A DNA stretch of 64,000 nt from Candolleomyces eurysporus (taxonomy: Eukaryota > Basidiomycota > Agaricomycetes > Agaricales > Psathyrellaceae): the NCBI GenBank assembly GCA_027579435.1, contig JANBPK010001480.1, positions 27,819-91,818 on the forward strand, in the 5' to 3' direction. Positions 56,040 through 64,000 of the stretch are shown here, one piece after another. Position 1 is the first letter of the stretch. Each line of letters starts with the position of its first letter. The notes beneath the pieces are model-generated. The model had not been told where the DNA came from, searched no databases, and saw only the letters and a program-made list of their open reading frames with translations. Made by a program: the position numbers and the translations under genes.

Positions 56040-57697
56040 CTAGTTCCTTGGGAGTACTTGCCGTGCTAAACGGGCAAGTCGTTCCTTCTGGTGAGCAAAC
56101 TCGACGTCCGACACCGGTCGTGAGCTAGAATCATCGAGCCACTGAAGGCATTCATCAGCCCCACGTCCTAGTTCCTGCATTGCGCCTTTGACCGTACGAC
56201 AGTACTCCTCTAACTCGTATCTTCTTTGTATTCGTTCTTCATTTGCGCGATCCCACTCTACAAAGCAAAGGTGTTGTGTCAGCTTTGGATAATCAGGCGA
56301 CGGTCCTGATTACGCACCGTCCAGCGTCTTGGCTCTTTTGATCATCGCCCGCTTTTCTTCCTGACGCAACCTTCCAGAGTCAATGGCCAAGCGTCGGCTT
56401 ATGGTGCCGCCTGTACGGAGGTGTCTCGCGTGAACCACGATGGACCGATCAACTGCCACATCGATCCTAACTTCCACAGTTGCACGCCGAGCCGGAAATA
56501 CAGGTTTGGGTATTCCCTGGAGCTCGAAAATCACGAGTAGGGCGTTTTGGCTAGGAATGATGCTTTCTCCCTCGTAGATCTGAATGTGAACAGTGGTTTG
56601 ATCGCGGCTGGCTGTAGAAAATTCTTGGATTACGAAGCCAGGAATTTGCGAATTCCTCTTCAAGATCGTCTTTATGACACTTTCGTGAGGGGAGCCCCCA
56701 TCGGGAGGGAGATAGTCAGTACCCTGAGATGTGTCCGGGTTGGGAATCACTGCGATATTGAGGGAGTGATGGAAAACGTCCGACACGCTCAGTCTGACAA
56801 GCTTCTCCTGCACCTGAGTTGGGAGCAAGCTGTCATCCGAAACTGCTGACCGGATGGCTGAGCGAACAGCGCATCCATAAGCGACAGCGTCATCAAGGTT
56901 TCGAACGCTAGTAACCTTTTGCCCCTGGCCGCGGAAGAAATCTTGGATGGACCTGGCCACTCCTGGTGTTCGGGTTGCTCCACCGACCAAAAGGATATCC
57001 GTGATACCGTCCTTGGAGACGTTTGCCTCAGCAAGAGCGGTTTTTATGAGCCCTACTATTGCGTCGTAGAGACTACCGCAGAGAGTGTGAAATTGGTCTT
57101 GCGTGATGAGGATGTTGGGGGTTTGAATGTGCTCTGAAATGCCTTCAAGATCAAGAAGGGTTTTCTGCATGGAGGACAAATCTCGCTTCGCCCTCTCGCA
57201 AGCGGAGGATAAACGTGCCAGATTACGTGCCCGTCCAGTAATATCAATCCCATGTTTCGCTCGTAGCTCCGCAACAACATAATTGACGAGAATGCGATCA
57301 ATGTCGTCGCCGCCCAGCTGGTGGTTACAAGCAGCGGCTTGAACTTTGATAACACCACCCTGAGCAACGGCAACAGCTGCACCGGTAGTTCCTGCCCCGA
57401 CGTTGACTATGAGAAGCTTCTTTTCCCCAAGCGAGAAGACTGGTGCGAGGTGCGAATCGGAATAGAAGGTGTAATAGATGGCGACTGCTGTGGTGTCGCT
57501 CATCAGGAAAGGGTTTGGTATTCCCGCAATTTCGCAAGCATCTTTGATCGCTTGTGCCTGGTGAACGGATAGTCCGGGTGGCATTGAGATAACAGCCTCC
57601 CCGATCTTGCCTCCAACGAAGTTCTCAGCCATTCTTTTTAATTTTGATAGCTGCATGGCAATTATTTCCTCAGGGGCCTTTCAGTCGCTTATCAGGG
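55885..57697 (-). repeat. Inverted duplication of the Hsp70-like locus
   Basis: Corresponds to about 15825-17215 on the opposite strand. Homology begins abruptly at about 57697, inside what is an intron in the 15-17 kb copy (CTGATAAGCGACT shared, then unrelated sequence), and ends near 55885. The 15-17 kb copy lacks about 430 bp that this copy retains. Arms are about 40 kb apart. Confidence 0.8.
56040..57656 (-). CDS. Hsp70-like protein lacking the first part of the ATPase domain
   Basis: Two exons: 57656-56318 and 56257-56040, giving about 518 residues from the first available ATG (MQLSKLKRMAENFVGG). The homologous position in the 15-17 kb copy is preceded by three exons with the phosphate-1 loop; those are absent here because the duplication starts in an intron. 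Retained: IGEAVISMPPGLSVHQAQAI, a degenerate phosphate-2 VNVGAGTTGAAVA, HQLGGDDIDRILV, LLVGGATRTPGVA, and a full substrate-binding part (VHIQIYEGESIIPSQNALL, FELQGIPKPVFPA) with a helical end (QKERLARLARQVLPRN). Without lobe I it should not bind ATP normally. Either a pseudogene with a long open frame or a shortened protein. The frame is fully open, which is notable. Confidence 0.75.
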
Positions 57698-57869: not shown

Positions 57870-60800
57870 TATCAGAGACAGGAAGTGGCTGCTGTCTTCC
57901 AATCCATTGCCCGGAAGGTGGAAAGCGAGGACCAGGTGAAACGGATGGAAGGTATCTGAGCCTTCACGGCGGTGACGCTGTTATGGTACCTGACATCCAG
58001 AATCTGAACGGAAGCGGACCCGGCCTTCTGGTTGCCAAAGGGCATCGAAGTCGATGGGGCCTCTGAGGCATGATGGGAGGTCAGCCCGCCTCTTATGGCC
58101 AGGTTGGAAGGTGGCAGGCCTTTCCCATGATGGCCAAAATAGTCGATAGGGAGACCAAAAAGGGATGAGGAAGAGAAGGCATCTTGGCCTTCCGAGGGCG
58201 TTGTGAGTCAGCACCGGAAGTCGCTGGTGCCTTCGGGTTCACAGAAGGTGATCTAGCCTTCCAGCCAGCTCATAGCTGGGGCCTGGACGGCGCTGTAGGC
58301 TTCCGGAATTTTTATCTGAAGGCACTGAAACGAGCCTGCATTTACCTTCCAACAATCAGGTTGAGTCTGGAAGGAGGGGTGGGCATCCAGATACATAGGT
58401 GGAAGGGGATGAAGAATTCAAACAAACTTGACAGAAAGTGAATCCACCTTCCCAATGGCAGACAGATTAGGATTAGAAGTCATTGATACCTTCAAGCAAC
58501 AGGGTTGGAAGGTGGGATAGCCTCCTGGTATTGGTTCTTATTGAGCTAGAAGTAGCCATTGCCTTCAAGGGTGTCAAGAGGAGGCAAACTGACCTTCTGG
58601 ATGGATTGTGGATTGAAAGTAGAAGCGGTCTTTGACCCTGGAGATGTTACTGGAAGGTATGTTTACCTTCCAGACCTGTTGTTAATGGCATTTGGAAGTG
58701 GCTGTTACCTTCCAAACATATGGAAGGTGGGATCACTGTTTGACCTAGTTGTCAGTCAAGCTTGGAAGGCAAAACAGGCTTCAAAGATTGAGACGGATTG
58801 TCATTGATGGCTTTGAGCAGAGGGTGGTGTTGCCTTCCAATGTTGGTTCTCATTGCAGCTGGAAGTAGCTGGTAGCTTCAAGGGGTGTCAAGGGAAGGTG
58901 ACCTGACCTTCCAATTAGGTTGTGGGTTGAGGATGGAAGGGTCCTTTTACTCCCAGGAGAGGTGACTGGAAGGTGTAATAGCCTTCTGGAGCTGCTATGA
59001 GTAAGCTTCAGAAGTGGGTGTTGCCTTTCAACATGGGCATGGAAGGTTGGATCACTTTTTTGCTTCAGGGAACAGTGTCAGAAGGTGGGATTGCCTTCCA
59101 ATGTTGGCCTTTGTTGTGGCTGGAAGTAGCTGGTACCTTTGAGGGGTGTCAACAGAAGGTAGACTGACCTTCCAACCAGGTTGTAGCTTGAAGATGGAAG
59201 GTTCCTTTGACTCCTGGAGACATTACTTGAAGGTGTGCTAGCCTTCCAGACCTGTTATGAGTAGCCATTTGAAGCGGCTATTGTCTTCAAACAAGGGCAT
59301 GGAAGGTTGGATCAACTTTCTGGCCAGTTGTCTGTCAAGCTTGGAAGGTGAAGTGGCCTTCAAAGAAAGAGATGGATTGGGGTTGGAAGTTGTTAATGGC
59401 TTCACCCAGCACTATCAGAAGGTGGTTTTACCTTCCAATGTCAGTTTTTACTGCTGCTGGAAGTAGCTGATACTTTTGAGGGTATCTTCAGAAGGTAAAT
59501 TGACCTTCCAGCTGGCTTGTAGGTTTAAGATGGAAGGGTCCATTTAGTCCCAGATATGTTACTTGAAGGTGTGCTAGCCTTCCAGACCTGTTGTGAGTGG
59601 CATTTGGAAGTGGCTATTTTCTTCAAACAAGGGCATGGAAGGTTGGATCACCTTTCTGGCTAGTTGTCTGTCAAGCTTGGAAGGTGAAATGGCCTTCAAA
59701 GAAAGAGATGGATTGGGGTTGGAAGTTGTTAATGGCTTTACCAAGCACTATCAGAAGGTGGTATTACCTTCCAATGTCAGTTTTTATTGTTGCTGGAAGT
59801 AGCTGATACTTTTGAGGGCGTCTTCAGAAGGTAAATTGGCCTTCCAGCTGGCTTGTAGGTTTAAGATGGAAGGGTCCATTTAGTCCCAGAGATGTTACTT
59901 GAAGGTGTGCTAGCCTTCCAGGCCTGTTATGAGTCCTCATTTGAAGCGGCTATTGTCTTCAAACAAGGGCATGGAAGGTTGGATCACCTTTCTGGCTAGT
60001 TGTCTGTCAAGCTTGGAAGGTGAAATGGCCTTCAAAGAAAGAGATGGATTGGGGTTGGAAGTTGTTAATGGCTTTACCAAGCACTATCAGAAGGTGGTAT
60101 TACCTTCCAATGTCAGTTTTTATTGTTGCTGGAAGTAGCTGATACTTTTGAGGGCGTCTTCAGAAGGTAAATTGGCCTTCCAGCTGGCTTGTAGGTTTAA
60201 GATGGAAGGGTCCATTTAGTCCCAGAGATGTTACTTGAAGGTGTGCTAGCCTTCCAGGCCTGTTATGAGTCCTCATTTGAAGCGGCTATTGTCTTCAAAC
60301 AAGGGCATGGAAGGTTGGATCACCTTTCTGGCTAGTTGTCTGTCAAGCTTGGAAGGTGAAGTGGCCTTCAAAGAAGGAGATGGATTGGGGTTGGAAGTTG
60401 TTGATGGCTTCACCCAGCACTATCAGAAGGTGGTGTTACCTTCCAATGTCAGTTTTTACTGTTGCTGGAAGTGGCTGATACTTTTGAGGGTATCTTCAGA
60501 AGGTAAATTGACCTTCCAGCTGGCTTGTAGGTTTAAGATGGAAGGGTCCATTTAGTCCCAGATATGTAACTTGAAGGTGTGCTAGCCTTCCAGACCTGTT
60601 GTAAGTGGCATTTGGAAGTGGCTATTTTCTTCAAACAAGGGCATGGAAGGTTGGATCACCTTTCTGGCTAGTTGTCTGTCAAGCTTGGAAGGTGAAGTGG
60701 CCTTCAAAGAAGGAGACGGATTGGGGTTGGAAGTTGTTAATGCCTTCACCCAGCACTATCAGAAGGTGGTGTTACCTTCCAATGTCAGTTTTTATTGTTG

Positions 60801-62165
60801 CTGGAAGTAGCTGATACTTTTGAGGGCGTATTCAGAAGGTAAATTGGCCTTCCAGCTGGCTTGTAGGTTTAAAATGGAAAGGTCCATTTAGTCCCAGATA
60901 TGTTACTTGAAGGTGTACTAGCCTTCCAGACCTGTTGTGAGTGGCATTTGGAAGTGGCTATTTTCTTCAAACAAGGGCATGGAAGGTTGGATCACCTTTC
61001 TGGCTAGTTGTCTGTCAAGCTTGGAAGGTGAAATGGCCTTCAAAGAAAGAGATGGATTGGGGTTGGAAGCTGTTAATGGCTTCACCCAGCACTATCAGAA
61101 GGTGGTTTTACCTTCCAATGTCAGTTTTTATTGTTGCTGGAAGTAGCTGATACTTTTGAGGGCGTCTTCAGAAGGTAAATTGACCTTCCAGCTGGCTTGT
61201 AGGTTTAAGATGGAAGGGTCCATTTAGTCCCAGATATGTTACTTGAAGGTGTGCTAGCCTTCCAGACCCGTTGTGAGTGGCATTTGGAAGTGGCTACTGT
61301 CTTCAAACAAAGGCATGGAAGATTGGATCACCTTTCTGGCTAGTTGTCAGTCAAGCTTGGAAGGTGAAATGGCCTTCAAGAAAGAGATGGATTGGGGTTG
61401 GAAGTCGTTCATGGCTTCACCCAGCACTATCAGAAGGTGGTGTTACCTTCCCATGTCAGTTTTTATTGCTGCTGGAAGTAGCTGATACTTTTGAGGGCAT
61501 CTTCAGAAGGTAAATTGACCTTTCAGATGGCTTGTAGGTTTAAGATGGAAGGGTCCATTTAGTCCCAGATGTTACTTGAAGGTGTGCTAGCCTTCCAAAG
61601 CTGCTGTGAGTAGTGATTGGAAGTGGCTATCACCTGCAAACAAGAGTATGGAAGGTTAGATGACCTTGCTGGCTAGTTGTCCTTCAAGCTTGGAAGGCAA
61701 AATGACCTCCAAAGGAACAGAAAAAATGGGTCAGAAGTTGTCAATGGCTTCAAACAAGGGCATGGAAGGTCGGATCACATTTCTGCCTTGTTGTTAGTCA
61801 AGCTTGGAAAGCAAAATAGCCTTCGAAGAACGGGCTGGATAAGGATCGGAAGCCATTGACAGGTTCAAGAGCCACATTGGAAGGTGAAGTTGCATTCTGA
61901 ACTCAATTTTCGTTTGGCTTGAACGCACCTGGTACCCTTGATGCGCGTCGAGGTTGGAAGATGGATTGGGATTTGAAGTCGTGGATGCCTTCAGGCGACT
62001 ATATTGGAAGGTGATCTCACCTTCCAGACTGCGTGCTTCTGCCTTCCAGCCGGGTCATGACATCAGACTGGAAGGTGCCTTTACCTTCTGGCTAGGTCTT
62101 CTGCATGGAAGGGGGTCTGAAGGTGAGGTAAATTGATTGAAGGTTGGATTACCTTCAGTCAACTG
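57870..62165. repeat. Array of 18-bp interrupted palindromes
   Basis: The whole 4.3 kb is built from short dyads of fixed length 18: GAAGGT, six variable bases, ACCTTC, with some arms decayed (GAAGTC, GCCTTC). Examples: 57948 GAAGGTATCTGAGCCTTC, 58175 GAAGGCATCTTGGCCTTC, 58244 GAAGGTGATCTAGCCTTC, 60090 GAAGGTGGTATTACCTTC and the last near 62140. Linkers differ in sequence. The outer parts (57870-59200 and 61600-62165) are diverged and irregular in pitch, while the core is homogenised into 336-bp units. No open frame crosses it and dyad spacing is not a multiple of three, so it is not coding. It lies between the truncated Hsp70-like gene and the partial gene at 62331. Function unknown. Confidence 0.85.
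59257..61609 (+). repeat. Seven tandem copies of a 336-bp higher-order unit
   Basis: Equivalent positions recur at 59257, 59593, 59929, 60265, 60601, 60937 and 61273, each exactly 336 bp apart; the last unit has lost a few bases. Each unit contains nine dyads. In the unit from 59943 the dyads start at 59943, 59974, 60016, 60058, 60090, 60132, 60163, 60205 and 60237, giving steps of 31, 42, 42, 32, 42, 31, 42, 32 and 42 to the next unit. Adjacent units in the 59474-60145 part look identical or nearly so, which suggests recent unequal exchange or conversion. Confidence 0.9.
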
Positions 62166-62330: not shown

Positions 62331-64000
62331 CTACTCATCCGAGCCCAGGTCAAGTTTTGACGAGCGTCTGAGGGAAGTTGGAGATCGCACAGGATGGCTG
62401 GTATCGGAATCACTATCGCTGCCACTATAGAGATTCTCGGGGGCAATCTCCTTGCCTTTGCCCTTATACTTGCCGCTAACACCATATTCCCCATCGACAT
62501 TGGGAAGGGATAGCATTCCTGTAGGCCTACCCATTTTGAGCACGTCCTCGCCCTCATCCAAGCCCTCACCCTCAACTTCATCGGGGACCTCCACATATTC
62601 TAGACGCCTCTTTGACGATTCATCTTTCTTCTTCTTCTTCTTCTTCTTTGCTGCACTAGCTTCCATCCCGTCGATCTGGGCACAGATGTCGTCTACCCAT
62701 TTGTCCATTCGAGCCTCGCTAGAACGCTGGTTGCCCTGGGTATCGTATTGAAACAAGTAGTCGAGTTTGACGTGGAGTTGAGTGAGGATGGTGCACAAAT
62801 AGAGGCGCTCCCGGGGCTTCAATGGGGATGCAAGGCTTTCGGTGGCAGAAGTCGAAGGCGACACAATCGACGTACGCTTCCAGAAGGAGAAGTCGACAAG
62901 GACTTCATTCAGGACACACCCGCAGTGCAGCGTTCGGATACCGTCATTCGAAACAGGGAAGAACTTGAGGACCCTCTCGAGCGTAAAGTTTGGGTTGTAC
63001 GAATTCGGCTTGGGAGGCTTCACTCTACCCTGCGAATCGATACGNATGGGGCGTTCTAGATAGCTAGGTTCGCGGAGGCCTTTCTTGGTCTTGACCGGGG
63101 GGTATGGGATACCGGTGACTTTCTGGCCCGATTTAGGGTTGGAGTCGTTGACAGGTGTGAGACTGGAGATACTGTGGTAGTGACAAGTCGTTCGACCGTT
63201 AGAAAGGATGAACACGGATGCTGCCAGCTTGATCGAGTGACATGCAGCCTGCGGAAGAACCGGCTGCCCACGTCTGATCCAGGTACGCGTGGCGTTGCTC
63301 AGAGGTACGTTGTAGTCGATGAAATCCTCGTAATCATTTGATGCATCCTCTAAATGGTTCCAAATAATCAACATTCGCGTTAAAGGGAAAAAATAAATTG
63401 AAGCTTACGATGCACGGCGTTGCGTTGCGTCAAGGAGAGGTTGCCGTAGATATCAGGGTGGTGTGACCCTTTGGAGGGGCCAGTGGTTGCCTTCTGTGAC
63501 AGCCCTTGCTCCGAGCTAGATGCTCCCGGTTTGACATCTTCTTCCTAAGCAATAATGAATAATTCGTAATCAAAGGGATGGAGCAGACATTACGTACGAT
63601 TTTAAGCATGCCCTCCACGAAGGCAGGATTGGAGACCTCAAGGTCCGAGTCCTCCGCGGGCTGAGACTTCATCCTGGAATTTTGTTTTGTCTTCGGATTT
63701 CGGGCAGGCTTGCGTGATTTGGGAGGGTTGGGGAATACTTCCTCGATTTCTGAGTCATCAGAGGCCTGGGCCTTCTTAGCCTTCCCGTGTTCCTTGGACT
63801 TTTGGGCAAGTTTGGGCGACTGAGGAGGCTCAGAGAGTGGTTTCGGAGTGGGTTCAGGTGACTTNGGGAGGGTCGAGGAGTGGATTGGGCGGCTGGGGAG
63901 GGTCAGAGAGTGGTTTCGAAGCGGGTTCAGGCGACTTGGGATGGTCGAAAAGTGGATTGGGCGACGGAGGAGGGTCAGAGAGCGGTTTGGGTGATTGAGG
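62331..64000 (-). CDS. Unrecognised protein with proline-rich repeats, 5' part outside the window
   Basis: The 3' part of a minus-strand gene, with exons about 64000-63602, 63547-63410 and 63355-62331. Introns of about 55 nt separate them. The N-terminal visible part is a 24-residue repeat (KPLSDPP.SPNPLxDxPKSPEP, at least two and a half copies), then an acidic/basic part (KKAQASDDSEIEEVFP). The middle is a compact domain (YEDFIDYNVPLSNATRTWIR, CHSIKLAASVFILSNG, FTLERVLKFFP, TLHCGCVLNEVLVDFSFWKR) that I cannot name. The C-terminus has a run of eight lysines (62628-62651), then acidic and serine-rich sequence (YSGSDSDSDTSHPVRSP). Composition suggests a nuclear protein; this is inference. The frame needs the N at 63865 removed but the N at 63045 kept. 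Confidence 0.65.

Follow-up and report, generated by a model that had tools for sequence, protein, structure and literature searches.

In this work, we analyzed an array of 18-bp palindromic sites (dyads, GAAGGT-N6-ACCTTC) near one end of a 64,000-nucleotide stretch of the Candolleomyces eurysporus genome, hereafter the window, which is the end of contig C469 in an assembly of 65.9 Mb (labels of this form denote contigs). We consider it probable that the array makes up the right subterminal region of a large DNA transposon of the CxC4-KDZ kind, which runs past the contig edge, and that its dyads would be sites bound by the element's own transposition proteins. The setting of the array is now explained, and the array is a new form of subterminal transposon repeats; no description of such dyad arrays in KDZ elements was found in the open-licence PubMed Central (PMC) literature. 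The original prediction had proposed a separate, undescribed cis-acting element, a view that gives way to one in which the dyads belong to a DNA transposon of KDZ type, as its subterminal part. One of its guesses, a transposition platform, does fit the transposon-end setting given by termini, target duplications and a CxC4 gene.

Termini, target duplications and the window element

A genome search with a 31-base terminal pattern, derived from a conserved stretch some 100 bp long, returned 23 places, and a control pattern none; together with the right end of C1220, the contig carrying the partner end of the window element, 24 termini were considered. Dyads were present on the inner side of 21 of the 23 places (3 to 25 each, counted over up to 1.5 kb, with several contigs stopping sooner) and absent from the outer side of those 21, and the first dyad lies 125-201 bp inside the terminal pattern in all 21 dyad-bearing termini. 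The inner sides hold 313 dyads in sum, near-identical copies being included without thinning. The conserved stretch is found on one side of the arrays and, on the other, one of two genes, encoding either the CxC4 protein or a protein of 347 amino acids (aa). One of these genes is on the same contig in 13 of the 24 termini, and its transcription is directed towards the terminus in 13/13.

The outermost six bases of the tips are of two kinds, CA(G/C)ATA (14 termini) and GGG(G/C)(C/T)A (10, including the C1220 right end). When the tips of one kind were compared with those of the other (14 x 10), 8 of the 140 pairs shared an exact 8-mer directly outside the tip, with an expectation of 0.002; flanks shifted by 1-5 bases gave no shared 8-mers, and tips of the same kind no matches. 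Judging from these flanks, the eight shared 8-mers are the target site duplications of eight insertions, all of which bear dyads at both members (3 to 25). A ninth duplication, of C845 with the C1220 right end, was spotted by eye and stands outside the count of 8/140. In C1220, C1062, C675, C746 and C26, the CxC4 side is the one with the CAGATA tip, and in C278 and C513 this tip is on the 347-aa side; from the sequences, some of the families seem to have an element interior that is flipped with respect to the tips.

One of these insertions involves the window. The 8-mer at the left end of C1220, CTGATAAG, pairs with CTTATCAG at 57688-57695, and when the host flanks of the window and C1220 are joined, two parts of an Hsp70-like gene come to lie in order. 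The upstream part, read from the translation, sits in the C1220 flank; two upstream pieces were scanned, one with a weak PF00012 match (E 0.074, profile 62-105, below the cut-off) and the other without a match. By this sequence evidence, the Hsp70-like host gene is split by the insertion of the element. The features of the window, in order, are:

56310..57656, minus strand: downstream part of the host Hsp70-like gene (PF00012, E 3.8e-72, profile 117-378)
57688..57695, no strand: 8-bp target site duplication CTTATCAG, which in reverse complement equals the 8 bases flanking the left terminus of C1220
57696..57795, plus strand: element tip (beginning GGGGCAGCCG) and conserved terminal repeat, from alignment with six other termini, the pattern search and the inverted pair on C1220
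57882..62156, no strand: subterminal dyad array, from dyad scans of the window
59078..61752, no strand: homogenised core of the array, a 336-bp unit in 8.0 copies (Tandem Repeats Finder, 93% matches)
62331..63374, minus strand: 347-aa open reading frame of the element, transcribed towards the array, with no Pfam family above the cut-off
63430..63999, minus strand: probable upstream exon of the 347-aa gene, running off the contig (open frame, similarity to C1220)

That palindromes of this form occur by the dozen was confirmed: the window contains 46 matches with at most one mismatch, all within 57948-62156 and 16 of them exact, against an expectation of 0.16 (mean of 100 window shuffles, maximum 2). 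At least 9 of the 12 arm positions are kept in 76 dyads, from 57948 onward, and the outermost GAAG-N10-CTTC, read from the window sequence, is at 57882. The limits first given for the feature (57870 and 62165) had to be abandoned, as it extends to the terminus at 57696 and is adjoined on the other side by the gene at 62331-63374. The nine steps claimed per 336-bp unit were confirmed in one unit, from 59680 to 60016, which reads 42, 32, 42, 31, 42, 32, 42, 31 and 42 bp; of the nine dyads in this unit, however, four are degenerate and keep 7-8 of the 12 arm positions. The array is without any frame of at least 150 aa; a coding repeat was rejected because its frames are all short, the longest listed having 96 aa. 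No Rfam family was matched in the window, and a tRNA or known RNA was rejected as the identity of the array after RNA scans of the window.

Dyads across the genome and their spacing

The exact dyad occurs 126 times genome-wide, compared with 12 times for a reversed control pattern, and among the places listed it is clustered on contigs such as C26, C278, C469, C513 and C162. Steps of 42, 32/31 and 74/73 bp recur in the loci read, most weakly on C162. Among 50 listed exact places, 45 are on contigs with a terminus, a CxC4 gene or a 347-aa gene, and a randomly dispersed satellite was rejected on this ground; the other five are on C224, C555, C572 and C573. Of the 126 exact dyads 97 were examined, and all but one (on C224) are on contigs of that kind. 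There are two exact matches on C96, and C247, with one exact match, later gave 34 dyads vs 1.15 in shuffled sequence.

Dyads had been seen 3' of 9 of the 18 CxC4 places, and for six of the other nine, 0.9-1.5 kb was then examined at the distance where an array would be expected. When GAAG-N10-CTTC was scanned at 7 of 8 positions, 12-25 dyads were found beside five of these six copies (shuffles 0.4-0.6), and steps of 41-43 bp are present in all five (5 to 12 each). The two inner bases of the half-site are GT in most arrays, TC or TT on C759 (GAAGTC and GAAGTT) and CT in the C983 right array.

Linkers and periods were compared over 14 arrays, near-identical ones having been thinned by hand. Between arrays, identity was 0.342 vs 0.257 shuffled for the linkers of 42-bp steps, 0.28-0.29 vs 0.24 for those of 31/32-bp steps and 0.291 vs 0.262 for the six central bases of the dyads, and in some array groups the linkers are unrelated to one another; arm identity was 0.835, a value that is partly circular as the arms served to select the dyads. 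Within arrays, linker identity rises to 0.48-0.56. The claim that arms are conserved while linkers vary therefore holds between arrays but not inside the homogenised core, where whole units match at 93%. Leaving out the window, exactly 42 bp separate the dyads in 103 of the 140 steps of 40-44 bp, and the step means are 31.67, 41.85 and 73.38. Spacing is thus kept where linkers diverge, as had been anticipated for the sites of a dimeric protein.

A 10.5-bp comb was also proposed. With the window left out, the distances between dyads in the 13 remaining arrays, taken up to 400 bp, gave a best period of 10.50 (periods of 6-20 scanned, R 0.454, n = 1875), and the successive steps (n = 293) one of 10.6. 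The period is as predicted, but it comes from two step lengths and the sum of the two, and the phasing of the dyads on one face is fairly described as a reading of two conserved lengths, not as an independent statistical result.

Transposase gene, partner contig and family assignment

C1220 holds, in this order, a left terminus, an array, the CxC4 gene, other genes, the 347-aa gene, an array and an inverted right terminus. Its two termini are 83% identical over 115 bp in inverted orientation, with arrays at both ends; the distance from tip to tip is about 16.3 kb, measured on a contig that seems chimeric, and need not equal the length of the window element. The left tip duplication of C1220 matches the window while its right tip has a different one, GTCCGTGT, also seen outside the C845 terminus, and for this reason the contig is probably a fusion of two insertions, one giving the left part and the other the right, joined in a common interior, as far as the sequences tell. 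Two more frames without a clear Pfam family are present on C1220 (L023, 2-607 and 939-1454) and on C26 (L024, 3746-4474 and 2647-3168), and by eye those of the two elements resemble each other.

The 347-aa open reading frame has 14 matches in the genome, with related proteins in C. eurysporus and C. aberdarensis. C1220 and the window are 84% identical across 1851 bp, a similarity extending into the stretch 63430..63999, where a second tandem repeat (63812-63988, 73-bp unit, 2.4 copies) lies inside the open frame. In an 11-row alignment of the 347-aa protein, C64 and H67 of the C1220 copy belong to eight invariant columns. Its AlphaFold model was unusable (mean predicted local distance difference test score 40.9) and was not used.

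The CxC4 domain (PF18717) on C1220 scores 148.8 bits against a cut-off of 26.9 (E 1e-43); it was found at 18 places in the genome and in none of 14 control genomes. Of the KDZ features, a CxC cluster, terminal inverted repeats (TIRs) and 8-bp target duplications, as in Zisupton, are present. The 8-bp duplications and the TIRs do not agree with Kyakuja elements, defined by 7-bp duplications, CA..TG ends and lack of TIRs. PF12851 (TET/JBP) has 26 matches in the genome, and only C1062 also has a CxC4 place, about 99 kb away, a comparison in which elements are split over contigs and exons may be missed. The KDZ domain has 121 matches in the genome, none of them at CxC4 places, where none of the 26 TET/JBP matches lies either. 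These 121 and 26 matches probably belong to other KDZ groups. A scan of IMG/VR for CxC4 relatives and paired dyads found none.

Possible role of the array and comparison with known elements

Dyad arrays are thus found at both element ends. A KDZ-type transposase gene adjoins one of them and the 347-aa gene the other, and both genes are transcribed in the direction of the adjoining array. Each dyad, with its two-fold symmetry, would be bound by a dimeric DNA-binding protein that the element encodes, the candidates being the zinc-cluster transposase and the 347-aa protein. Spacing by four and three helical turns would place neighbouring sites on about the same face of the helix, which may permit the cooperative loading of many dimers, and the loaded dimers would mark the true transposon ends and help both ends to pair before cutting. 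We infer that many dimers load in this way at each of the two ends by analogy with the TNPA sites of En/Spm (PMC2613891) and the multiple THAP sites of Galileo (PMC3688188), as far as the available parts of those papers describe them. It is tempting to speculate, as a doubtful extension, that the arrays form an address code set out on a helical ruler: the CxC4-KDZ clade as a whole would share the GAAG-N10-CTTC frame and the three- and four-turn steps, the inner half-site bases would be family-specific and read by the cognate zinc-cluster protein, and this protein, lined up along one side of both ends, would pair them and prevent families from mobilising one another.

Several observations weigh against the transposon-end explanation, two of them being given below with the RNA hairpins that they favor. 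The KDZ catalytic domain (PF18758) reaches 17.8 and 17.0 bits in exons of C26 and C1220, below the cut-off of 26.6 (E 0.003-0.005), and the transposase gene lies outside the window, to which it is tied by sequence through the seemingly chimeric C1220. Two termini, on C888 and C1256, are without inside dyads and have one outside; from their sequences, they are probably duplicated remnants. (Their outer flanks, in loci L046 and L047, are nearly identical, and they have a common inner sequence after about 75 bp.) In the region looked at, the C991 copy has one dyad vs 0.4 shuffled. The looser motif GAAG-N10-CTTC was picked after low counts with the original one, which at 10 of 12 positions had given none on C279, 3 on C759, 6 on C983, 17 on C845, 5 on C626 and none on C991; the divergent arrays match the original motif so little because their inner arm bases differ. 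The C983 right array has steps of 41-43 and 82-85 bp (the latter eleven times), and 5 of 11 steps on C626 are of 43 bp. With the basic steps removed, 26.6% of 109 steps fall within 1 bp of a multiple of the period vs 22.9% expected (n R-squared 1.70), and no comb emerges from the distinct step lengths (n = 63, R 0.109).

The dyads might instead be sites for a repressor or activator encoded by the element, or for a silencing factor of the host, and serve to regulate the element's expression or chromatin and not end pairing, which we regard as unlikely. The arrays do lie 3' of the gene in all 13 termini with a gene on the contig, and in En/Spm the subterminal-repeat protein needed for transposition can also block transcription, so that both roles can coexist (PMC2613891, in the part available). 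However, both ends of all eight paired insertions have dyads, beside different genes, and the narrow offset of the first dyad from the terminal pattern in 21/21 termini fits end recognition better than the control of one promoter. Tandem duplication and homogenisation within a transposon end could also have left functionless dyads as a neutral satellite, an explanation that we find quite improbable. The 336-bp core is clearly homogenised, and the linker identity within arrays shows that units have duplicated, but arms and step lengths persist between array groups despite near-random linkers (arm identity being partly circular), and families with other inner arm bases keep dyads, such as GAAGTC on C759 with steps of 42/32.

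It is very improbable that the dyads act as RNA hairpins, with 6-bp stems and 6-nucleotide loops in the 3' untranslated part of element transcripts. Both genes run into arrays, so their transcripts may include dyads; pairing of the inner positions is above shuffled values in the window (17 vs 12.0) and on C759 (6 vs 3.6), and at the outermost arm pair G.T exceeds A.C by 25 to 3, an excess that perhaps comes from homogenised copies of one window dyad. Over 22 arrays, however, the inner arm positions pair in 87 of 303 cases vs 85.7 after shuffling within arrays, the six arm pairs together show 145 G.T vs 137 A.C (p 0.68), and the window has no Rfam family. With no overall covariation and no overall G.T bias, RNA hairpins were rejected as the principal explanation; the half-sites vary about independently, which on balance favors DNA sites of a dimer over RNA stems.

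Among described elements, KDZ1-KDZ3 of Cryptococcus neoformans resemble the transposon proposed here in belonging to the KDZ superfamily with a zinc-cluster (CxC) domain, TIRs and target duplications; in the available part of that report, they measure about 9-11 kb, with TIRs of 139-241 bp and duplications of 8 bp (KDZ1) or 4-8 bp, and their insertion was observed, KDZ1 itself having 11 kb, 241-bp TIRs and 8-bp duplications (PMC12810828). In contrast to the CxC4 found here, they carry CxC1, and the same part of the report does not mention a dyad array for them (PMC12810828). Zisupton elements likewise have TIRs and 8-bp target duplications, whereas Kyakuja elements are described with 7-bp duplications and no TIRs, and mushrooms are among the hosts (PMC12730594, part of the text). 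The elements of that source carry TET/JBP, which was not found beside the CxC4 copies here; in its text, 'subterminal' and 'CxC4' do not occur, and 'palindrom' occurs once, in another context. For a nematode Zisupton set, TIRs but not duplications were found, according to the available part of PMC9297572.

In Galileo (P superfamily), long TIRs contain several sites for the zinc (THAP) domain of the transposase, and the authors propose that specificity arises from many sites; it differs in that the sites number three and two of these lie in long direct repeats, as described in the part of that source available, and 'spacing', 'palindrom' and 'dimer' do not occur in its text (PMC3688188). CACTA elements (En/Spm, soybean Tgmt*) have repeated subterminal motifs that are bound by a second element-coded protein, TNPA, are needed for transposition and vary by family (PMC2613891, likewise in part). 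Their transposase is unrelated, and there are no fixed 18-bp dyads on a ruler of three and four turns. CACTA subterminal motifs are single sites in both orientations.

Subterminal repeats are known in several transposon superfamilies, and little is understood of how large eukaryotic elements bring their two ends together across more than 10 kb. In the present case, a single insertion has roughly a hundred symmetric sites (76 in the window and 35 at the partner end) on four- and three-turn steps, and related families differ in motif and hardly in spacing, so that it becomes directly testable what the number of sites, their phase and their motif each contribute to end recognition. Moreover, several contigs break inside dyad arrays, which makes the arrays a handle for finding complete KDZ elements.

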